Shown here in pieces: positions 49,053 through 61,901 of a stretch of 64,000 bases of DNA (the first letter of the stretch is position 1; the number at the start of each line of letters is the position of its first letter). The translations under genes and the position numbers were made by a program. Source of the stretch: Thermodesulfobacteriota bacterium (GTDB taxonomy: Bacteria > Desulfobacterota_D > UBA1144 > Nemesobacterales > UBA2774); NCBI GenBank assembly GCA_040754335.1, contig JBFMCV010000004.1, positions 186,001 to 250,000 of the forward strand. The letters are read 5' to 3'. The notes under the pieces are model-generated. The model had not been told where the DNA came from and did not search any database. It saw only the letters and a program-made list of their open reading frames with translations.

Positions 49053-49892
49053 TTAAATTCTATTTTCAGTAGATGTTTTTTCTTCATACTTTATAAAAAA
49101 CTTTAATAATGCGGAGTTAAAGCCGGAGGGGCCTTCCCCGTCCGCGAGCGTCGCGTTTCCGAGCCGGCACCCGCTGTCATAGATTCCTCCTCTTTTCCGG
49201 ACGAGCACGGGGAAATCGACCTCTTTCAGCATCGGGAGGTCGTTCAGGCTGTCTCCGACCCCTATGGTTTCTATAGACGGCGACTCGTTTCTATAAATTC
49301 CGGTGAGGATTCTTACCGCCTTGCCCTTGTCGTTATCCCCCAGGATGTGGTGGAACCTGCTCCCGCGCGTGTAGCTATAACCTCTTTCGGCTATCTTTCT
49401 CCCGACCTCCGCCTCGTCTCCGCCTATTATAAGGAAAGGCTCGCTGTAGCTCCTCTCCATCGCCAGGAAGGCTGACTCCTCGTCGAGTCCGGTCGATTCC
49501 ATTATCTCGGCTAAAGACATATCCGAGATGCCTCTTATGCTTATCCCGGTTTCGGAAGCCACTCTACTGAGAACGCCCCTGAGTATATCGCGCGGCGTCC
49601 CTCGCTCTATTACGTGATATCCGCCGTATGTCCTGTCGTAACGGAATTTGCGGCTGAAGTAGCCCTCCGGTATGAAGATGCCCCCGCCGTTTTCCGATAT
49701 GAACGGGTGGGCGTTCCCGAGGAGCGATCTGTACCTCTCGATCTCGCCGCGGGATTTGCTGGTATTGATGACTAGGGGGATATTTTCCACCTCCAGCAGA
49801 CGGAGAGCGGGAAGCGCCTTGTCGAATGAATATGTATCGTGATCGAGAAGCGTTCCGTCGAGGTCGGTATATACGAGGAATTTATGACGCAT
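49053..49892 (-). CDS. Mannosyl/glucosyl-3-phosphoglycerate phosphatase (HAD-IIB)
   Basis: 279 residues of the Cof-like HAD-IIB class. Motif I YTDLDGTLLD carries the nucleophile Asp10 and Asp12; motif II is VINTSKSRGEIE; motif IV is GVGDSLNDLPML. Closest to mannosyl-3-phosphoglycerate phosphatases, which release phosphate to give the compatible solute mannosylglycerate; relatives act on the glucosyl form. It overlaps the upstream synthase gene by 11 bases and is clearly co-transcribed with it. Confidence 0.9.
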   Translation of the reverse strand: MRHKFLVYTDLDGTLLDHDTYSFDKALPALRLLEVENIPLVINTSKSRGEIERYRSLLGNAHPFISENGGGIFIPEGYFSRKFRYDRTYGGYHVIERGTPRDILRGVLSRVASETGISIRGISDMSLAEIMESTGLDEESAFLAMERSYSEPFLIIGGDEAEVGRKIAERGYSYTRGSRFHHILGDNDKGKAVRILTGIYRNESPSIETIGVGDSLNDLPMLKEVDFPVLVRKRGGIYDSGCRLGNATLADGEGPSGFNSALLKFFIKYEEKTSTENRI

Positions 49893-51093
49893 TGTCCTTA
49901 TCGACCGAGTCCTTTAACATATCGAGAATATCCGGGATGGCCGAGGCCACCCTGCTCCAGTTCGGGATCAGGGGCGATCCCAGGGGGTTTTCGAGGAATT
50001 GCCGGCTTGCTATCCTTATGCCACGGGCGAATGTCTCGACTGCGAGCGCTTCCGAGTGCCTGTCGAAAAAGAGACCGTTTATCGCCGCATCGTCTTCGTA
50101 CATCTTTATCGTATCCTGGGCTATTTTCAGGTAAGTGACCAGGAGCGTATTGAAGGTGCTCTCCGGGAAATTTACCCCTTCCGAAGACAGGGTCCTGAAA
50201 AGGGACATGGATATATCGGCGCACATCTTTAGGAGGCCGCCCATCTCGTCATCCGGCGACAGCTGCTGGTGCTTATGCTCGTAATTGTCCGCGAGGTCCA
50301 CCTGGCATATCCTCTTGAGCGAAACGTTTCTGAACACTTCGGCGAGCGAGCCGACTTCGAGCCCCCAGTCTGCGGGGATCCTGTTCACCCTAACGAGGTC
50401 CGTCTTCATCGAGAACTCCCCCGCGAGCGGATACCTGAACCCGTCGAGATAGACGAGGAACGGGATGTGTCCGAAGATCTTTTTGAGCGCCCTGATCACG
50501 GGTGATATGAAGAGCCTCGTGACCCTGCCGTACATCCTGTCGGTCACTCTCGAGTAATACCCCTTGCAGAATTCATAATCCATATTCGGGTTCGCAAGCG
50601 GGTAGCACAGTCTCGCCAGAAGCTCTCGGCTGTATGTGAGTATGTCGCAGTCGTGGAGGACTATGACTTCGCTCGTCTCTCCCGCGAGGACGTAGCCGTA
50701 AGCTATCCATGCGGCACGCCCTTTTCCGGGCTCGCCGACTTCGAGTCCGCTCTCTTTAAGCAGATTGAAGATAGCGGTCATCCTGTCCCCGTCGTCCCAG
50801 ATGATCTTGTAATTATCCGGGAGCACCGAGAAGAACTCCTGAGCGTGTCTGAATTCCCTCTCGTTCGCCCTCCCCAGCGTTATCACGATCTCGTTCAGGT
50901 ACCTGACTTCTTTCAGCTGTTTCAGGATTTGTTTGAGGGCTTTCCCCTTGAGCTCCGAGTAGAGGCACGGAAGCACGAGCGCGATCGGGCGCGTCTCGCA
51001 GAACTCGAGCAGCTGTTCTTCCAGCTGTCCGACATTGTTCTTGTTGAGCCTGTGGAGTGTCGAAAAAGACTCTGTCTGATAAAAATCGCCCAT
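49882..51093 (-). CDS. gpgS: Glucosyl-3-phosphoglycerate synthase (GT81-like)
   Basis: 403 residues from the ATG at 51093, selected because GGGGAGGT lies 7 bases upstream. A GT-A-fold transferase with the metal-binding HDCD motif (148-150, DxD) and GKGRAAWIAYGY. Sequence fits glucosyl-3-phosphoglycerate synthase, which joins an NDP-sugar to 3-phosphoglycerate. With the overlapping phosphatase this makes a two-step glucosylglycerate (or mannosylglycerate) pathway, used against salt, heat or nitrogen stress. The sugar donor cannot be chosen between GDP-mannose and NDP-glucose from motifs alone. Confidence 0.87.
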   Translation of the reverse strand: MGDFYQTESFSTLHRLNKNNVGQLEEQLLEFCETRPIALVLPCLYSELKGKALKQILKQLKEVRYLNEIVITLGRANEREFRHAQEFFSVLPDNYKIIWDDGDRMTAIFNLLKESGLEVGEPGKGRAAWIAYGYVLAGETSEVIVLHDCDILTYSRELLARLCYPLANPNMDYEFCKGYYSRVTDRMYGRVTRLFISPVIRALKKIFGHIPFLVYLDGFRYPLAGEFSMKTDLVRVNRIPADWGLEVGSLAEVFRNVSLKRICQVDLADNYEHKHQQLSPDDEMGGLLKMCADISMSLFRTLSSEGVNFPESTFNTLLVTYLKIAQDTIKMYEDDAAINGLFFDRHSEALAVETFARGIRIASRQFLENPLGSPLIPNWSRVASAIPDILDMLKDSVDKDNAS

Positions 51094-51257
51094 GTCTGTG
51101 ACCTCCCCCCCACGAGCTATAAATGATAGCACACGGGCATATGACAACCTAACGCTTTTTTCGCGGCTCGGAGGGCGATAAATATTATGATACCGGGAGC
51201 GCTCGCATGCCGCAGCGGCTGATTCCGTCGGGCGCTATTTATTCGGTAGTATAAAAG

Positions 51258-52709: not shown

Positions 52710-54047
52710 TTAATATGACTGCGTTCGGAACGGGCAAAACCGGCCCATAGCCCCGAGCGCCCTTTCCGCTATCCAGCATTTCTTACGGGATTTCGGTATC
52801 TTTTCCAGGGGAGGGGGGAATAGTCCGAAATTTATGTTCATCGGCTGAAAATTCTTGATGCTGCTGTCGGATACGTACCTCAGGAGTGAGCCTATCGCGG
52901 TCTCTGGCGGCGGAATCACCGGGCTTTGGCCGAGCGTTACCCTTCCGGCGTTGATGCCGGCGATAATGCCCATCGCGGCCGATTCGACGTACCCTTCAAC
53001 GCCCACTATCTGGCCGGCAAAGAATATGAGGTCGCTTTTTTTAAGCTGGAGCGTTTCGCGCAGGAGCCTCGGGGAGTCGATGTAGGTGTTTCTGTGGACG
53101 CTCCCGTACCTCATGAACTCCGCCCCCTCGAGCCCTGGTATCATCCTGAATATGCGCCGCTGCTCGGGATATTTGAGCTTCGTCTGGAACCCCACCATAT
53201 TGTACATCGAGCGCTCCGCGTTCTCGGCCCGGAGCTGTACGACAGCAAACGGTGTCGCGCCCGTGCGCGGGTCCCTGAGGCCCACGGGACGCGCCGGACC
53301 GAACCTGAGCGTTTCCCTCCCGCGACCGACTATCTCCTCAACCGGCAGGCAGCTCTCGAAGTAGATGCCCTTTTCAAAATCCCTGGTCTCGATCTTCTCC
53401 GCCTTATTTATCTCGTCGACTATGGCGTAATATTCATCCTTTTTTATCGGACAGTTTATATAATCGCCTTCCCCCTCGTTCTCCTTCTCATACCTCGAAG
53501 CCCTGTAGACCTTCGAATAATCAATGGAATCCGCGTCGATTATCGGGGATATCGCATCGTAGAAATATAAATGTCTTGAGTCGGTCAAAGCCCGGATGTT
53601 TTCCGCTAGAGACTCTGAAGTGAGCGGGCCCGTCGCGATTATAAGGGGGGAAACGGGAGAATCCGGAATACCCCCGAATTCCTCTCTCACGATCTCGATA
53701 AGCGGATTGTTTTCAATTATGCCTGTGATATACCGTGCGAACGCGATCCGGTCCACCGCCAGGGCCTTGCCCGCGGGCACTCGAGTCTTCTCGGCAGCCT
53801 CTATGACAAGAGAGCCCAGACGTCTCATCTCTTCCTTCAGTATGCCGCTTGCGTTATCAATTGAGTCTGATTTAAGGGAGTTGCTGCAAACGAGCTCGCC
53901 CAGGTCGCCCGTGCTATGAGCCGGGGACGATTTAAGCGGTCTCATTTCGTATAATTTGACCCTGACGCCTAATTTCGATGCCGCATGCGCTGCCTCCGAG
54001 CCGGCAAGCCCCCCGCCTGCTATGATTATTTCATTCTCATTTTTCAT
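52710..54047 (-). CDS. trmFO: Folate/FAD-dependent tRNA (uracil-54-C5)-methyltransferase TrmFO
   Basis: 445 residues from the ATG at 54047, where the FAD-binding Rossmann motif IIAGGGLAGSEAA follows within ten residues; a longer in-frame start adds unrelated residues. Conserved CSNSLKSDS (the catalytic Cys region), CPIKKDEYY and VEGYVESAAMG are present. It makes m5U54 in tRNA from methylene-THF. TrmFO is found in bacteria that lack TrmA, including Gram-positives and many deltaproteobacteria. Confidence 0.95.
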   Translation of the reverse strand: MKNENEIIIAGGGLAGSEAAHAASKLGVRVKLYEMRPLKSSPAHSTGDLGELVCSNSLKSDSIDNASGILKEEMRRLGSLVIEAAEKTRVPAGKALAVDRIAFARYITGIIENNPLIEIVREEFGGIPDSPVSPLIIATGPLTSESLAENIRALTDSRHLYFYDAISPIIDADSIDYSKVYRASRYEKENEGEGDYINCPIKKDEYYAIVDEINKAEKIETRDFEKGIYFESCLPVEEIVGRGRETLRFGPARPVGLRDPRTGATPFAVVQLRAENAERSMYNMVGFQTKLKYPEQRRIFRMIPGLEGAEFMRYGSVHRNTYIDSPRLLRETLQLKKSDLIFFAGQIVGVEGYVESAAMGIIAGINAGRVTLGQSPVIPPPETAIGSLLRYVSDSSIKNFQPMNINFGLFPPPLEKIPKSRKKCWIAERALGAMGRFCPFRTQSY

Positions 54048-54140
54048 GCGCTTAATTCTACCCGAACAGTGGTATTTCGGCGCAGCCGGGACTGGTGACA
54101 AATAAAGTCTCTATAATACAATATTCGTCATTTTAAATCA

Positions 54141-54166
54141 TTAGTGATAAGTGCGGGTTACACTAA
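54141..54166. promoter_or_regulatory. Possible upstream activator site, TTAGTG-N14-CACTAA
   Basis: A 6+6 inverted repeat with a 14-base spacer, centred about 100 bases upstream of the predicted sigma-54 transcript start. That is a usual distance for an NtrC-type activator such as PilR. Chance occurrence is possible. Confidence 0.3.
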
Positions 54167-54193
54167 ATTCTTAAGATTTTATTGTTATCTTGG

Positions 54194-54205
54194 CAACTTA
54201 AGTTG
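54194..54205. promoter_or_regulatory. Perfect palindrome CAACTTAAGTTG
   Basis: A 12-bp perfect palindrome, about 54 bases upstream of the predicted sigma-54 transcription start, between the distal dyad and the promoter. It could be an operator; the binding protein is unknown. Confidence 0.3.
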
Positions 54206-54227
54206 GGGCCGGGTTTGTTAAGTCCAA

Positions 54228-54243
54228 TGGCATATATTTTGCT
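54228..54243 (+). promoter_or_regulatory. Sigma-54 (-24/-12) promoter of the pil operon
   Basis: TGGCAT-ATATT-TTGCT matches consensus TGGCAC-N5-TTGCW at all but one position, with GG and GC separated by the exact 10 bases. Transcription should start near 54254, some 300 nt before pilB. The operon ends with pilR, a sigma-54 activator. Confidence 0.7.
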
Positions 54244-54556
54244 AAAATTTAGTAAATGGTTGATCGGTACGGATTGATTTAAACGCCAACCAACATTGAA
54301 ACGTGTTTTTGGGCCTATAATTGGATATGGGGAATATGTTCAAGATAGATATGTGCAAGTTTCTTGCCCGGGACGTTCGGGACAGGTGGGGCCGGGTAGC
54401 GAATGCATGCGGCTGTGGGAATGCCCGATTAAGGGGGCTATCTATATCTATTTCCCTGTCCGACTGTCCCTGAAGAGGGTTTTGTACGAATCGATCAATC
54501 CGCGCGGCGGCCGTAAACCGTAACTTAATTATGAACCGGGTGAAAACAAGATTGAA

Positions 54557-56311
54557 ATGAAAGAGCAACGAGTCAGCGCACAGATGGGCGATATCCTGAT
54601 CAAGGAGGATGTAATAAACCTTGACCAGCTTAAAACGGCCATACAGGAGCAGAAGGAAACGGGGAAAAGGCTCGGGGAGACCCTGCTAAATCTAGGATAC
54701 ATCGACGAACACCAGCTCGTCGCTTATCTAAGCAAGCAGTACGGAGTCCCGGCGATCAATCTGGATCAGTTCGATATATCGATGGACGTTCTCAAAACCG
54801 TTTCCAGAGAATCCGCAATAAAACATAAGCTCATCCCGATAAACAGATCAGGCTCAACTCTTGTCGTCGCCATGTCGGACCCCTCCAACATCTTCGCCGT
54901 CGATGACCTCAAGTTCGCGACCGGCCATAACATCGAAGTGGTCGTGACTTCGGAACGTTCGATAAGAAACGCGATCGAGAGGTTCTACGGCTCCCAGCAG
55001 GAATGGGAGGACGCAAGGAAGGCGCAGGAAAGCACTGCCGCCGTCGACAAGCTCATGGGCGACCTCGACGATTTCCTCATCGAGATAAGCGGCGAAGAAA
55101 ATATAGACCTCAACGACCTGGAAAAAGCCTCCGAAGAAGCGCCCGTGATCAAGCTCGTGAACCATCTGCTCATGGATTCTATCAGAAAAGGGGCGAGCGA
55201 CATACACATCGAGCCTTACGAAAAATCTCTCAGGGTCAGGTACAGGATAGACGGGGTGCTCTACGATGTAATGCATCCGCCAGTGAAGCTAAAGAACGCG
55301 GTGACTTCGAGAGTGAAGGTAATGTCGAACCTCGACATTGCCGAGAGGAGGCTCCCGCAGGACGGCCGAATCAAGGTGAAGATGGCCCAGAACAGGACGA
55401 TGGAATATCGTGTTTCCGTGGTTCCAACCCTGTTCGGAGAAAAAGTCGTCATGAGGATACTCGACAAGGAATCGCTTCAGCTGGACCTGACCAAGCTCGG
55501 ATTTTATGAGGACCAGCTCGAGGTCTTCAGGAGGTCTATATATCAACCCTTCGGAATGGTGCTCATCACGGGACCGACGGGCAGCGGTAAAACGACGACA
55601 CTGTATTCGAGTCTAATGGATCTGAACCGTATTGACGTAAACATCTCGACTGCCGAAGACCCGGTGGAATACAGCCTTCCGGGTGTAAACCAGGTGCAGG
55701 TGCACGAGGAGATCGGGCTGACATTCGCTTCCTGTCTCAGGTCTTTTTTACGGCAGGACCCGGACATCATCCTCGTCGGCGAGATCAGGGACTACGAAAC
55801 GGCCGAGATAGCGATCAAGTCTGCGCTCACGGGACACCTCGTCCTTTCGACGCTCCATACGAACGACGCCCCGTCTACGATAACGAGGCTGCTCAATATG
55901 GGCGTTGAGCCGTTCCTCGTAACGGCGTCCCTGAACGCCATTGTCGCTCAGCGACTTGTGAGGGTTGTCTGTCCCGAATGCAAGAAAGAGACGGAGGTCG
56001 CTCCCCAGGTGCTTATAGACCTCGGGGTCTCCCCTAAAGAAGTCGCTGATTATATAGTTTATAAAGGGAGCGGCGAAGGCTGCAAGACGTGCTCCGGGAC
56101 GGGCTACAAGGGCAGGCTCGCCGTATTCGAAGTCATGGAACTGACGGATGAGCTCAAGGAATTCATACTGAGCGGCGCCTCGTCGCTCGAAATAAAGAGG
56201 GAAGCGATCAGGCAGGGCATGAGGACGCTCAGACAGAGCGCTCTACAGAAGCTGAAGCAGGGTGTAACCTCCATAGAAGAAGTCGTGAGGAACACCGCAG
56301 CCGACGATTAG
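54557..56311 (+). CDS. pilB: Type IV pilus extension ATPase PilB
   Basis: 584 residues. An N-terminal MshEN/GspE-N domain (about 5-150, LDQLKTAIQEQKETGKRLGETL) precedes the ATPase core with Walker A GPTGSGKT (about 338-345), Asp box, Walker B ILVGEIRD and a His box. The zinc-binding cysteines are CPEC (about 473) and CKTC (about 510), typical of PilB rather than PilT. It powers pilus extension and heads the operon pilBTCSR. MshEN domains can bind c-di-GMP; whether this one does is untested. Confidence 0.95.
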   Translation: MKEQRVSAQMGDILIKEDVINLDQLKTAIQEQKETGKRLGETLLNLGYIDEHQLVAYLSKQYGVPAINLDQFDISMDVLKTVSRESAIKHKLIPINRSGSTLVVAMSDPSNIFAVDDLKFATGHNIEVVVTSERSIRNAIERFYGSQQEWEDARKAQESTAAVDKLMGDLDDFLIEISGEENIDLNDLEKASEEAPVIKLVNHLLMDSIRKGASDIHIEPYEKSLRVRYRIDGVLYDVMHPPVKLKNAVTSRVKVMSNLDIAERRLPQDGRIKVKMAQNRTMEYRVSVVPTLFGEKVVMRILDKESLQLDLTKLGFYEDQLEVFRRSIYQPFGMVLITGPTGSGKTTTLYSSLMDLNRIDVNISTAEDPVEYSLPGVNQVQVHEEIGLTFASCLRSFLRQDPDIILVGEIRDYETAEIAIKSALTGHLVLSTLHTNDAPSTITRLLNMGVEPFLVTASLNAIVAQRLVRVVCPECKKETEVAPQVLIDLGVSPKEVADYIVYKGSGEGCKTCSGTGYKGRLAVFEVMELTDELKEFILSGASSLEIKREAIRQGMRTLRQSALQKLKQGVTSIEEVVRNTAADD

Positions 56312-56326
56312 CGCGTGGAGGACAGA

Positions 56327-57430
56327 GTGGCTATAGCGATAGACAAGCTTTTAAAACTCATGGTGGAGAACGGAGCGTCGGACCTGCACATCACCGCAGG
56401 CGTGCCGCCGATGCTCAGGATCGACGGAAAGCTGGTTCCGGTAAAGCACCCCCCGCTTACCCCTCCCGATACGAAAGACATCTGCTACAGCGTGCTCACC
56501 GACATGCAGAAGCACAGGTTTGAAGAAAACTGGGAGCTCGATTTCTCTTTCGGAATGGAGAATCTAGGCCGGTTCCGCGGTAATGTCTTTACGCAGAGGG
56601 GCGCTGTTGCGGGCGCATTCAGACTCCTGCCATTCGTGCTGAAAAGTTACCAGGAGCTGGGGCTCCCCCCGGTGCTCGCCGACCTCGCAAGGAAGCCGAG
56701 GGGCCTGATCGTGATCACAGGGCCTACGGGCTCGGGTAAGACCACGACGCTGGCGAGCGTCGTCGATCAGGTAAATAAGGAGCGTCACGAGCATATAGTT
56801 ACGATCGAGGACCCTATAGAGTATGTTTTCGAGCACAAGAACTGTATAGTTAACCAGAGGGAGGTAGGGAGCGATACCAAGAGTTTCGCAAACGCCCTTA
56901 AAAGCGTGTTGAGGGAAGACCCGGACGTCGTACTCATAGGTGAAATGAGGGACCTGGAAACTATAAAGATAGCGCTCACCCTGTCCGAGACCGGTCACCT
57001 TACTCTCGCCACGCTCCATACGAACACGGCCGTGCAGACCATAAACCGAATCATAGACGTTTTCCCTCCGCACGAGCAGTCGCAGGTGAGGGCTCAGCTC
57101 TCGTTCGTCCTGGAAGGCATACTATGCCAGACGCTTATCCCGAAGATAGGCGGCGGGCGCGTCCTTGCAGTCGAGGTGCTCGTGCCCAACCCCGCTATAA
57201 GGAACCTTATCAGAGAAGATAAAGTGCATCAGATCTATTCGCAGCAGCAGATCGGACAGGAGAAGTGGAAGATGCAGACCCTCAACCAGAGCTTGGCTGA
57301 CCTGTACCTTAGGAAACTCATCAGCTATGACGATGCAATAGGGAAATCCCAGGAGCCCGAGGAAATAAAACGGATGATAAGCGAACGCTCTGCGCCCGAG
57401 GGTACGAAAGAACGGATGATAAGGCAATAA
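56327..57430 (+). CDS. pilT: Pilus retraction ATPase PilT
   Basis: 367 residues from the GTG at 56327, preferred because GGAGG lies 5 bases upstream; another GTG at 56315 lacks such a site. Walker A GPTGSGKT falls near 131-138, with Asp box EDPIEY and Walker B LIGEMRD, and the PilT-specific AIRNLIRE motif at about 290. No zinc cysteines. It drives pilus retraction. It follows pilB with a gap of 15 bases. Confidence 0.94.
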   Translation: MAIAIDKLLKLMVENGASDLHITAGVPPMLRIDGKLVPVKHPPLTPPDTKDICYSVLTDMQKHRFEENWELDFSFGMENLGRFRGNVFTQRGAVAGAFRLLPFVLKSYQELGLPPVLADLARKPRGLIVITGPTGSGKTTTLASVVDQVNKERHEHIVTIEDPIEYVFEHKNCIVNQREVGSDTKSFANALKSVLREDPDVVLIGEMRDLETIKIALTLSETGHLTLATLHTNTAVQTINRIIDVFPPHEQSQVRAQLSFVLEGILCQTLIPKIGGGRVLAVEVLVPNPAIRNLIREDKVHQIYSQQQIGQEKWKMQTLNQSLADLYLRKLISYDDAIGKSQEPEEIKRMISERSAPEGTKERMIRQ

Positions 57431-57493: not shown

Positions 57494-58708
57494 ATGCCTG
57501 TATTCGTGTGGGAAGGAAGGCTGGCGGGCACAATCAAGAAGGGCGAGATGGACGCCCCCAGCAAATCTGCGGTTCTGGCCCGTCTCAGGCAGATGCAGAT
57601 ACAGCCTATACCGAACCGGATCAAGGAGAAGGGCAAGCTCTTCGGTCTGGACCTCTCCTTCGGCTCGGTGTCGACGAGGGACCTCGTAGTTTTCACGAGA
57701 CAGCTCTCGACGATGATAGACGCTGGTCTTCCGCTGGTGAGGGGTCTCGATATCATCGCGTCCCAGCACCCGAATCAGAAATTCAAACAGATCATTATCA
57801 GGGTCAAAGAGGACGTCGAGGCCGGCTCCACGTTCGCCGAAGCTCTGGGAAAGCACCCGAAGGTGTTCAGCAACCTCTATACCCAGCTCATTAAAGCGGG
57901 AGAGACGGGCGGCGTGCTCGACGTGATCCTGCAGAGGCTCGCCAACTATCTCGAAAAAATGGATTCGATTAAAAGAAAAATCAAGGGTGCGATGATCTAC
58001 CCCTCGATAGTCATCAGTGTAGCCGTGCTCGTCCTTGCGATAGTAATTATATTCGTCGTTCCCGTATTCGCCGAGATGTTCAAGGACATGGGGACGACTC
58101 TGCCCGGGTTAACGCAGCTCGTAGTGGATATCAGCTTTTTTACGAGGCACAACATTCTATATATATTGATAGCGATTGCAGCCATTGTTTTCCTTATAGG
58201 ATTCAGCTACAACAGATCGTTCAGGGTGAGAAGGCTCTTCGATGCATTCCTGCTCAGGCTTTGGCTTGTGGGGCCGCTCCTGCTGAAGACTGTCATCGCC
58301 AGGTTCTGCCGGACGCTTGCCACGCTCACGGCGGGCGGTATAGCGATATTGGACGGTCTCGAAATTACGGCAAAGGCCTCGGGCAACATGATAACCGAGG
58401 AAGCCATCCTCGAAGCCAGAAAGGGGGTCAGCGAGGGGCAGACGCTAGCGGAGCCGCTTGCGGTGAGGCCGAAGCTCTTCCCGCCGATGGTCGTTCAGAT
58501 GATCTCGGTCGGCGAGCAGACAGGCGCACTCGAGGACATGCTGAATAAGATCGCCGACTTCTATGAAGAAGAGGTCGATATAGCGGTCGCATCGCTTCTC
58601 TCGGCTCTGGAGCCCCTCATGATAACGGTCCTGGGGGCCACAGTCGGTGTCATAGTCGTCTCGATGTACCTTCCGATGTTCAAGCTCGTGGCGACTATGG
58701 CGAATTAA
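57494..58708 (+). CDS. pilC: Type IV pilus inner membrane platform protein PilC
   Basis: 404 residues with two GspF-type domains (about 70-190 and 275-395) each followed by membrane helices (about 165-190, 218-240 and 375-400). FTRQLSTMIDAGLPLVRGLD and FCRTLATLTAGGIAILDGLE are the repeated cytoplasmic signatures. PilC is the platform that PilB and PilT act on. GAGGGA precedes the ATG. Confidence 0.95.
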   Translation: MPVFVWEGRLAGTIKKGEMDAPSKSAVLARLRQMQIQPIPNRIKEKGKLFGLDLSFGSVSTRDLVVFTRQLSTMIDAGLPLVRGLDIIASQHPNQKFKQIIIRVKEDVEAGSTFAEALGKHPKVFSNLYTQLIKAGETGGVLDVILQRLANYLEKMDSIKRKIKGAMIYPSIVISVAVLVLAIVIIFVVPVFAEMFKDMGTTLPGLTQLVVDISFFTRHNILYILIAIAAIVFLIGFSYNRSFRVRRLFDAFLLRLWLVGPLLLKTVIARFCRTLATLTAGGIAILDGLEITAKASGNMITEEAILEARKGVSEGQTLAEPLAVRPKLFPPMVVQMISVGEQTGALEDMLNKIADFYEEEVDIAVASLLSALEPLMITVLGATVGVIVVSMYLPMFKLVATMAN

Positions 58709-58821
58709 CGCCCTGACTGAATATCGGCGCTCAAGTTTCCTATATCCTTGTCAATTCGTTGATAGACCGGTGTTCATTGGTATTGCCACAATCGAACTGG
58801 AGGTATAGTCTTAAAGCGGAT

Positions 58822-60462
58822 ATGAAAGTCCTGCAGAGCCCCGACGGAGGGCTTAAGAGCTCGGTAGTACTAAGGGTCGTCATCACGACCGTGCTGCTCG
58901 GGTCGGGAGCCGTGATTTACTACGGGAGAGGCGCGAGAAAGGAGGCCTTTTATCTCGCAGTCATCGTAGCCTTAATCTATTTCCTGAGCCTCGTTTCCCT
59001 CCTCCTTCAGTCTTTGTTTCAGCGGCACCCCAGGATCTTTAAGATTTCTCAGCTCGTCTTCGACCTGGCCCTGGCTTCGACAGTCATCTTCGTGACGGGC
59101 GGTAAATCGAGCCCTTTCATTTTCCTCTATGTACTCATAATCATTTATTCGAGCATAGTGCTCACAAAGGTGGCGAGCTACGTTACGGCCCTAGTTTCGG
59201 GGCTTGTCTATGTCCTGATCGTATTCTACCAGATCAGGATCGAGGTGCCGCTTGAGCCCGGCCAGAGCATCTGGAGCTCTGTCTCCCTGTGGGGGGAGAT
59301 AGGGCTCGTTTCCACTTACTTCCACCTGACCGGATTCCTGCTCGTCGCCATCCTGTCGGGTTATCTTTCGGAGAGGTTCCGTGCGGCCGGGAGGGAGCTC
59401 GGCGAGAGCGAAAGAAGCCTGCGGATACTCCAGAACCTGCACGAGAATATTATTCAGAGCCTCACGAGCGGCGTGATCACCCTAAATCTCGACGGCAGGA
59501 TCATTTCTGCTAACAAGGCGGGTCTAGATATCCTGGGTATAAACGGCGAGGATAAGATCCTGGGCAAGGACCTGAGTCAGTTCATGACGGGACTCCATCT
59601 CGATGACCTGGTCTCGAAGAAGAGGGAGCAGATGCTGTATACGTCGCCCGACGGGAGAATGGTTACACTCGGCTTCTCCTCCTCCGAGCTCAGGGATACG
59701 GAAGAAAAAGCGCAGGGGTATATAATCATATTCCAGGACCTGACCGAGGTGAAGGAGCTCGAAGACCGCCTGAGGACGTCGGAGAAAATGGCGCTCCTCG
59801 GTCAGCTCGCGGCGGGTCTCGCCCACGAGCTGAGGAACCCGCTATCGGCTATAAGCGGCGCGGTCGAGATACTAAGCAGCGACGTCAAACCCACTGAAGA
59901 GAACCTGAGGCTCGTACGCATGGCTTCTCAGGAGGTGGAGAGGCTCAATCTGCTCGTGGAAGATTTTCTCATACTCACCATGCCGATACAGAAGCTGACT
60001 ACGCTCGTAGACCTCGGACGTATTATCGCCGACACGGTCGAGTCGTTCGCGAAAACAATAAGACGCGGCAACATAGAGATAGTGAACCAGGTCGAAAAGG
60101 GGATATATGTCCAGGCGGATTCATACCGGCTGAAGCAGGCGGTGTGGAATCTCCTCCTCAATTCCGTGGACGCCATGCCTATCGGCGGCCTTATAATAAT
60201 TAAATCGAAGACCGGGGAAAACAGCGTGGTTATAGAAATATCGGACGAGGGCAAGGGGATCGACGAGAATTTTATCTCGAGGATATTCGAACCGTTTTTT
60301 ACGACCAAGGAAGTGGGCACGGGGCTCGGCCTTGCAATTGTACAAAAGGTTATAGAAGGTTATAATGGAAACATCAATGTGGTGAGTTCGCGGGGCAACG
60401 GGGCGACATTCGTTATCACATTGCCGAGGTTTAAAGAGGTGCCTGCCGATGTCATACATTGA
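58822..60462 (+). CDS. pilS: Sensor histidine kinase PilS
   Basis: 546 residues from the ATG at 58822 (a TTG at 58759 is possible but adds an unlikely N-terminus). Six transmembrane helices occupy about 15-190, as in PilS, then a PAS domain (about 205-310), the H-box LAHELRNPL (His335), N-box WNLLLNSVDA, G1 DEGKGID and G2 GTGLGLAIVQ. It should autophosphorylate and control PilR. The membrane input module may sense pilin in the inner membrane, as in Pseudomonas; this is inference. Confidence 0.92.
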   Translation: MKVLQSPDGGLKSSVVLRVVITTVLLGSGAVIYYGRGARKEAFYLAVIVALIYFLSLVSLLLQSLFQRHPRIFKISQLVFDLALASTVIFVTGGKSSPFIFLYVLIIIYSSIVLTKVASYVTALVSGLVYVLIVFYQIRIEVPLEPGQSIWSSVSLWGEIGLVSTYFHLTGFLLVAILSGYLSERFRAAGRELGESERSLRILQNLHENIIQSLTSGVITLNLDGRIISANKAGLDILGINGEDKILGKDLSQFMTGLHLDDLVSKKREQMLYTSPDGRMVTLGFSSSELRDTEEKAQGYIIIFQDLTEVKELEDRLRTSEKMALLGQLAAGLAHELRNPLSAISGAVEILSSDVKPTEENLRLVRMASQEVERLNLLVEDFLILTMPIQKLTTLVDLGRIIADTVESFAKTIRRGNIEIVNQVEKGIYVQADSYRLKQAVWNLLLNSVDAMPIGGLIIIKSKTGENSVVIEISDEGKGIDENFISRIFEPFFTTKEVGTGLGLAIVQKVIEGYNGNINVVSSRGNGATFVITLPRFKEVPADVIH

Positions 60463-60482: not shown

Positions 60483-61901
60483 ATGGGACAAAATGACAGC
60501 AACATTCTGGTCGTAGACGACGAGCCGGGTATGAGGGAGTTCCTGGAGATCATGCTCCAGAAGGACGGTTATAACGTCGAGACCGCAGCCGACGGCTCCG
60601 AAGCAATAGACAAGATCGAGGAGAAGCTTTTCGACCTTGCCATTGTCGACATCCAGATGCCTGTGCTGAACGGGATCGAGGTGCTCAAGAAGTTCAACGA
60701 AAAGAGCCCGGACACCACGGTAATAATGATTACCGCGTACGCATCGCACGAAACGGCGATAGAGGCGATGAAGCTGGGCGCGTACGACTATATCACCAAG
60801 CCCTTCAAAATAGATGAGATCAAGCTCGTGATAAAGAAGGCGCTCGAAAAGAAGAAGCTCGAGCGCGAGAACACAAGGCTGAGGAAGGAGCTCGAGACAC
60901 AGTACGGCTTCGGAAACATCATAGGCAGGAGCCCGTCCATCGTAAAAGTCTTCGAGCTCATTAAGAGGGTCTCCGAGCTCAATGTGAACGTGCTTATCAC
61001 CGGCGAGAGCGGTACGGGAAAGGAGCTCGTGGCGAGGGCGATACATTACAGCGGCACGAGACACGATAAACCGTTCGTCCCGGTAAACTGCGGGGCCATT
61101 CCCGAAACGCTTATGGAGAGCGAGCTCTTCGGTTATAAGAAAGGCGCCTTCACAGGCGCGATGAGGGATAAGCGCGGACTCTTCGAAGAAGCGGACGGGG
61201 GTACCATTTTCCTCGACGAAATCGGGGACCTGCCGCTCCACCTCCAGGTAAAGCTACTGAGGGTGCTCGAGGAGAAGAAGATAAGGCCCTTAGGCGGCAC
61301 TGAAGCCGTGAACGTCGACGTCAGGGTCATTGCCGCGACAAACAAGAAGCTCGAGGACGAAGTCGCAAGCGGCAGGTTCAGGGAAGACCTCTTCTATCGT
61401 CTTAACGTTATAAAGATCGTGCTGCCCCCGCTGAGAGAAAGGAAGATAGACGTATCTCCGCTCGCCATCCATTTTATCAACAGGTATTCGGTCGAGATGG
61501 GGAAGGACATACGGGGGATATCGCCTAAGGCGCTCGAGATACTGGAGAACTATCATTACCCGGGCAACGTGAGGGAGCTCGAGAATATAGTCGCGCGGTG
61601 CGTGGCGCTCGAGTCCTCAAACGTCATACGCCAGGAGACGCTGCCTCAGCTCGTCACCGGAAGGGACTATCTCGACCTCGACACGAGCTTCGCCTCGAAC
61701 TCGAGCCTCGACACGCTCCTCGGGGACGTGGAGAAAAAGATGATAGAGAAGGCGCTCAGGACGACTAACGGGAATAAGACCGAAGCCGCGAGGCTCTTGG
61801 GCATAACGCTCCGTTCGCTAAGGTACAGGCTCGCCAAGCACGAGCTCGACGACGGGAACGGGGATGACCTTGAGGATATGGACGAGGCGGGGGAGCTTTG
61901 A
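60483..61901 (+). CDS. pilR: Sigma-54-dependent response regulator PilR
   Basis: 472 residues. Receiver domain with phospho-acceptor Asp56 (LAIVDIQMP), sigma-54 AAA+ domain with Walker A GESGTGKE and the sigma-54 contact loop GAFTGA (about 222-227), and a Fis-type HTH (about 425-460, NGNKTEAARLLGITLRSLRYRL). It follows pilS by 20 bases. The operon head carries a sigma-54 promoter, so PilR is likely to activate its own operon. Confidence 0.94.
   Translation: MGQNDSNILVVDDEPGMREFLEIMLQKDGYNVETAADGSEAIDKIEEKLFDLAIVDIQMPVLNGIEVLKKFNEKSPDTTVIMITAYASHETAIEAMKLGAYDYITKPFKIDEIKLVIKKALEKKKLERENTRLRKELETQYGFGNIIGRSPSIVKVFELIKRVSELNVNVLITGESGTGKELVARAIHYSGTRHDKPFVPVNCGAIPETLMESELFGYKKGAFTGAMRDKRGLFEEADGGTIFLDEIGDLPLHLQVKLLRVLEEKKIRPLGGTEAVNVDVRVIAATNKKLEDEVASGRFREDLFYRLNVIKIVLPPLRERKIDVSPLAIHFINRYSVEMGKDIRGISPKALEILENYHYPGNVRELENIVARCVALESSNVIRQETLPQLVTGRDYLDLDTSFASNSSLDTLLGDVEKKMIEKALRTTNGNKTEAARLLGITLRSLRYRLAKHELDDGNGDDLEDMDEAGEL

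Follow-up and report, generated by a model that had tools for sequence, protein, structure and literature searches.

In Pseudomonas aeruginosa, the kinase PilS has six membrane segments through which it senses pilin, PilR is a sigma-54 activator and the pilA promoter is of the −24/−12 type (PMC6058289). The pilB gene, divergent from pilA, is reported to be sigma-70 dependent, and its expression falls in a pilR mutant, an effect attributed there to the shared divergent promoter (PMC6058289). In Geobacter sulfurreducens, pilA is regulated by PilR through an RpoN promoter (PMC2725144); the main text of the Geobacter RpoN study makes no mention of pilB, and 54 predicted PilR-type loci, pilus genes among them, are cited for this species in PMC6058289. 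A c-di-GMP binding motif has also been described for MshEN domains (PMC5013675).

Here we examine a locus from an uncultured species, assigned to Candidatus Dadabacteria by its named relatives (genome 3.26 Mb, 98% complete), lying in a window of 64 kb, by which we mean the whole stretch of DNA that was analysed. As in the P. aeruginosa PilSR system, a six-helix PilS-type kinase accompanies a PilR-type sigma-54 activator, and here too pilin genes have −24/−12 promoter sites. Unlike in P. aeruginosa, pilB, pilT, pilC, pilS and pilR together stand behind what looks to be a sigma-54 promoter of their own, with the same upstream box as at the pilins. We read the system as PilSR/sigma-54 control with a wider, differently wired target set.

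The pilBTCSR operon and its sigma-54 element

The operon opens with pilB (54557-56311), a type IVa pilus assembly ATPase gene (TIGR02538, 783.9 bits). Like the MshEN ATPases MshE and PilB, its product has an MshEN N-terminus (PF05157) above the cut-off of the MshEN c-di-GMP motif model (NF053729, 63.9 bits); the second RLG...Q motif is intact and the first is altered, reading Q instead of R and, at the conserved second G, D. There follow, all on the plus strand, genes for the retraction ATPase PilT (56315-57430; TIGR01420, 476 bits), the platform protein PilC (57494-58708; PF00482, closest to NF052606, under its cut-off), a PilS-like histidine kinase (58759-60462; HisKA, HATPase_c) with a PilS-type six-helix membrane domain (PF25323 6TM_PilS, 29.6 bits against a cut-off of 27) and, adjoining pilS, a PilR-like response regulator (60483-61901). 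The last has the receiver, AAA and Fis HTH domains of a sigma-54 activator (PF00072, PF00158, PF02954), with GAFTGA at residue 221; none of the 25 NCBIfam matches listed for it is PilR-named, and all are below cut-offs. The five genes presumably form one transcript, in an order, pilB-T-C-S-R, that we take to be also that of the G. sulfurreducens pil cluster. In Geobacter pilA sits directly behind pilR, whereas in the window's genome ~150 kb of one contig separate the operon from the major pilin genes.

The divergent neighbour trmFO (52710-54047, minus strand) likely starts at the ATG at 54047, in an ORF reaching to 54101, so that the boxes and promoter described below fall in a 509 bp gap. On the same strand, 49882-51147 encodes a glucosyl-3-phosphoglycerate synthase-like protein (closest model GpgS_Meth, 365 bits, short of the cut-off of 700).

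Within the gap lies the −24/−12 element TGGCATATATTTTGCT (54228-54243, plus strand), with the pilB start codon at 54557, 329 bp downstream. It has no mismatch to TGGCAYRN4TTGCW and two differences from the stricter TGGCACG (T for C, A for G), its GG (54229-54230) and GC (54241-54242) being separated by exactly ten bases. No other perfect match to TGGCAYRN4TTGCW occurs in the window; for the plus strand of the gap, the number expected by chance is 0.0002 if base frequencies are taken as equal and 0.002 if the empirical density in the genome is used. RpoN is encoded in the window's own genome (PF04552, E 8.7e-55) and was found in 41 of the 44 genomes searched. Transcription is predicted to start near 54254, ~12 bp past the GC.

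A perfect sigma-54 site lies within 400 bp upstream of the orthologous pilB in 12 of 16 Dadabacteria genomes (G000, which is the window's genome, and G001, G002, G003, G005, G006, G007, G010, G017, G018, G021 and G034), with a chance of ~0.002 per genome. It is missing from G016, G028, G029 and G032, and in G016 RpoN was not detected either. Most relatives keep pilB and pilR colinear and 5.8-5.9 kb apart. Upstream of pilB in other phyla, we found a site with one mismatch on one Desulfuromonadaceae contig (L123) and otherwise no convincing site. In the window's family, the sister genus g2 (G004, G008, G011-G015) is devoid of this PilB and of PilR throughout; it keeps RpoN and a second, PilB-like ATPase (about 45% identical). 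The relatives are mostly metagenome assemblies, in any one of which the absence of a gene says little.

Support for a genuine sigma-54 promoter ahead of pilBTCSR is strong: the perfect element is conserved, rpoN is present and an activator box stands at a fixed distance. The earlier note had put the motor operon under sigma-54 on the strength of a −24/−12 match with exact spacing and an operon ending in pilS and pilR, with GAFTGA in PilR. Spacing, match and domain content were borne out, and the GG-N10-GC pattern, which that note had proposed to look for in relatives, held at the 12 loci.

Activator boxes at pilB, pilin and other promoters

On comparing upstream regions, we saw two candidate upstream activator boxes, TGACAAATAAAGTC (54096-54109, plus strand) and, ~21 bp or two helical turns away, ACAATATTCGTCA (reverse complement TGACGAATATTGT; 54118-54130, minus strand). 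This tandem box (54096-54130), of the palindrome type TGACAAWTWTTGTCA, lies about 96-117 bp upstream of the sigma-54 element, inside the ~80-200 bp range of sigma-54 upstream activator sites. The motif was read from three promoters, those of pilB and of both major pilins of the window's genome. When trained on the pilin-promoter boxes only, a matrix recovered the box at 10 of 12 pilB promoters, mostly at a distance of 96-97 or 116-117 bp to the −24 element; in G021 and G017 the pilB sigma-54 site is present and the matrix search found no box. A published PilR box was looked for in the papers searched, and no usable one was found there. Between box and promoter, a block TATTGTNATYTTRGNAACTTA (54158-54195) shows conservation across the genus and, in part, across the family; it does not look like an obvious IHF site.

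No type IV pilin was found within the window, as the earlier note had said; the two major pilin genes lie at C4:91.7 kb and C4:90.8 kb, on the same contig. Each is preceded by its own sigma-54 site and TGACAAWTWTTGTCA-type box, so the contrast drawn in that note, with the motor under this control here and the pilin in Pseudomonas, was mistaken. Of the major pilins sampled in relatives, nearly all have the same pair, with 0-1 mismatch in site and box alike: those in G001, G002, G003, G006, G010, G018 and G034, and one in G029. The pair was absent from the minor pilins and type II pseudopilins sampled in relatives.

Searching the window's genome for the box at ≤1 mismatch gave 32 matches against 11 in the control, and 15 of the 32 are followed by a sigma-54 site 72-153 bp downstream, where 0.29 would be expected. 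With the three motif-source promoters set aside, eight further promoters combine box and sigma-54 site against ~0.24 expected, a figure that assumes uniform positions; both motifs favour intergenic DNA, and such clustering could raise the pair expectation several-fold, but not to eight. Two of these promoters precede GGDEF proteins (diguanylate cyclases), at C3:226.5 kb (L173, C3:226541) and C8:68.7 kb (L179, C8:68732). Others belong to a hybrid PAS histidine kinase (C2:365.8 kb), an MshEN-receiver protein (C7:63.5 kb), an RpoD-like sigma factor with box and perfect sigma-54 site directly upstream (C4:171.5 kb; L176, C4:171551) and a small predicted exported protein with no Pfam match (C4:376.1 kb); the remaining two are at loci without clear gene content. 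The element, its conservation, the boxes and their co-occurrence can all be read directly off the DNA.

Two sigma-54 sites lie apart from this set. At L174 (C4:377586), an RpoD-like sigma factor gene stands directly behind a perfect site without an activator box. A perfect site 1.5 kb past the window (L061 6520-6535; C4:251519) immediately precedes an ammonium transporter gene, and no activator box was found there, so another activator probably acts at that promoter.

Competing readings of the element and the box

A functionless chance match would be in keeping with the genome-wide counts, since at ≤1 mismatch TGGCAYRN4TTGCW occurs 92 times against 94 in the reversed control. Given this lack of enrichment, our case draws on conservation and context rather than the bare match, and on those grounds the chance explanation is practically negligible: in the alignment of pilB upstream regions the 16 bases of the element are nearly unchanged amid mostly diverged flanks, and the site is present in 8 of 12 genera (assuming independence, P about 1e-20). 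It is also very improbable that the operon is expressed mainly from a sigma-70 promoter, with the sigma-54 element minor or conditional. The leader does contain TATAAT at about 54316-54321, and the sigma-70 dependence reported for P. aeruginosa pilB (PMC6058289) offers a parallel; however, a promoter search of the plus strand from 54100 to 54560 returned no acceptable −35/−10 pair, and the hexamer reads TATACT in G001-G003, whereas the −24/−12 element is kept.

For the box, PilR seems the best candidate binder: its gene lies in the operon, the pilin promoter is the target classically known for it in other bacteria (PMC6058289, PMC2725144) and box enrichment follows its presence. In the window's family, boxes stand at 111:45 against the reversed control in PilR-bearing genomes and at 41:53 in the sister genus without PilR. 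The former include G001 and G007, counted by their pilB operon; in these fragmented genomes pilB is present and a PilR match is absent, presumably owing to contig breaks. Enrichment is weak or absent in AT-rich families. Because the window's genome has 13 sigma-54 activator domains, the assignment to PilR is one that we infer, and a different enhancer-binding protein might own the box and control pili and c-di-GMP enzymes, with PilR acting elsewhere or on a subset only. We regard this as unlikely. Such a protein would suit the box promoters beyond pilB and the pilins, which mostly serve signalling genes and not pilus genes, and G030, which has many boxes and no detected PilR, although that genome may be incomplete; against it stand the occurrence of the box ahead of pilB and of the major pilins, on which PilR classically acts, and, within the family, its tracking of PilR. 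That tracking and the box common to pilB and the pilins lend indirect support to the PilR feedback loop proposed earlier, in which PilR would be the protein that binds.

Leader riboswitches and proposed regulation

Between the sigma-54 site and pilB, two relatives have a full c-di-GMP-I (GEMM-I) riboswitch (RF01051, cut-off 35 bits): G006 (L036 1232-1340, 58 bits) and G034 (L039 1241-1353, 71 bits). Both aptamers retain G at the base before CAAAC, where G favours c-di-GMP over cyclic AMP-GMP. The predicted pilB leader of the window (54254-54556, plus strand) had no match to RF01051 or any other Rfam family in a search up to E 5; the riboswitch is either absent from it or present only as a decayed remnant, which homology to G001 and G006 would place at ~54335-54385. 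The leader of G001, a member of the window's genus, still gives a 46-base alignment to the G006 aptamer that outscores all 500 shuffles, with the 3′ half lost, and the window's leader aligns with that of G001. Compared directly with the G006 aptamer, the window's leader has no significant similarity (p 0.26), and the remnant claim is based on G001, G002 and G003 together with the alignment. Because the riboswitch occurs in both G006 (family f1) and G034 (family f4), it is probably ancestral in the pilB leader and decayed in the window's genus; two separate gains, in G006 and G034, are less likely.

The window's genome has nine c-di-GMP-I riboswitches. One, 14 kb past the window end, precedes pilM-pilN-pilO (L216 about 1776-1861; G000:C4:264275-264360), and G001 and G006 have one near pilM as well. 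At L107 (G000:C11:1019-1166, minus strand), the sigma-54-like site TGGTATGAATATTGCA is followed after ~40 bp by another c-di-GMP-I riboswitch, itself ahead of a gene for a predicted secreted protein, a tandem arrangement like that at pilB in G006 and G034.

We propose, with a probability of about three in four, that PilR acts through the boxes and sigma-54 to drive its own pilBTCSR operon, both pilins and about eight other promoters, and that the riboswitch layer has been lost in this lineage; the direction of regulation throughout is what we infer from these patterns. PilS would activate PilR, which would bind the paired palindromic TGACAAWTWTTGTCA-type boxes, about 100-130 bp upstream of the element, and contact RpoN-polymerase at 54228-54243, opening the promoter for a start near 54254. 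The operon would raise its own activator together with the motor, amounting to positive autoregulation by PilSR, and pilin sensing by PilS, if as in P. aeruginosa, would brake the loop. Through the same box, the same regulator would induce both major pilin genes alongside the motor and would act at the other promoters, including those of two diguanylate cyclases and the MshEN-receiver protein, giving a c-di-GMP output. In the two relatives, the riboswitch in the pilB leader would provide a second, post-initiation control that the window's lineage has lost. More tentatively, and with some doubt on our part, a single PilR/sigma-54 regulon of motor, pilins, own regulator and dedicated diguanylate cyclases might be joined to c-di-GMP feedback on RNA, by riboswitches in the leaders of pilB and pilMNO, and on protein, through MshEN of PilB, forming a nested loop from which one lineage lost the motor-operon riboswitch and kept the sigma-54 switch.

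For a link of PilR to pilB there is a precedent in the P. aeruginosa pilR mutant (PMC6058289). Features that appear to be new are a conserved sigma-54 promoter dedicated to the complete operon of motor and regulator genes, a defined box that pilB has in common with pilins and c-di-GMP enzymes, and a riboswitch layer that is present in some lineages and not in others. Knowledge of PilR/sigma-54 control comes mainly from the pilin gene. In the present case the motor operon has this module too, activator included, and the box recurs at genes for enzymes that make c-di-GMP, in a phylum represented here by metagenome assemblies only. The box defines a concrete, testable regulon, and if PilR reads all of the boxes, PilSR activity would raise c-di-GMP along with pili. 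The combination of sigma-54 and a c-di-GMP riboswitch, which two relatives keep intact and others have in decayed form, offers a natural experiment on the trade-off between two control layers over pilus assembly.
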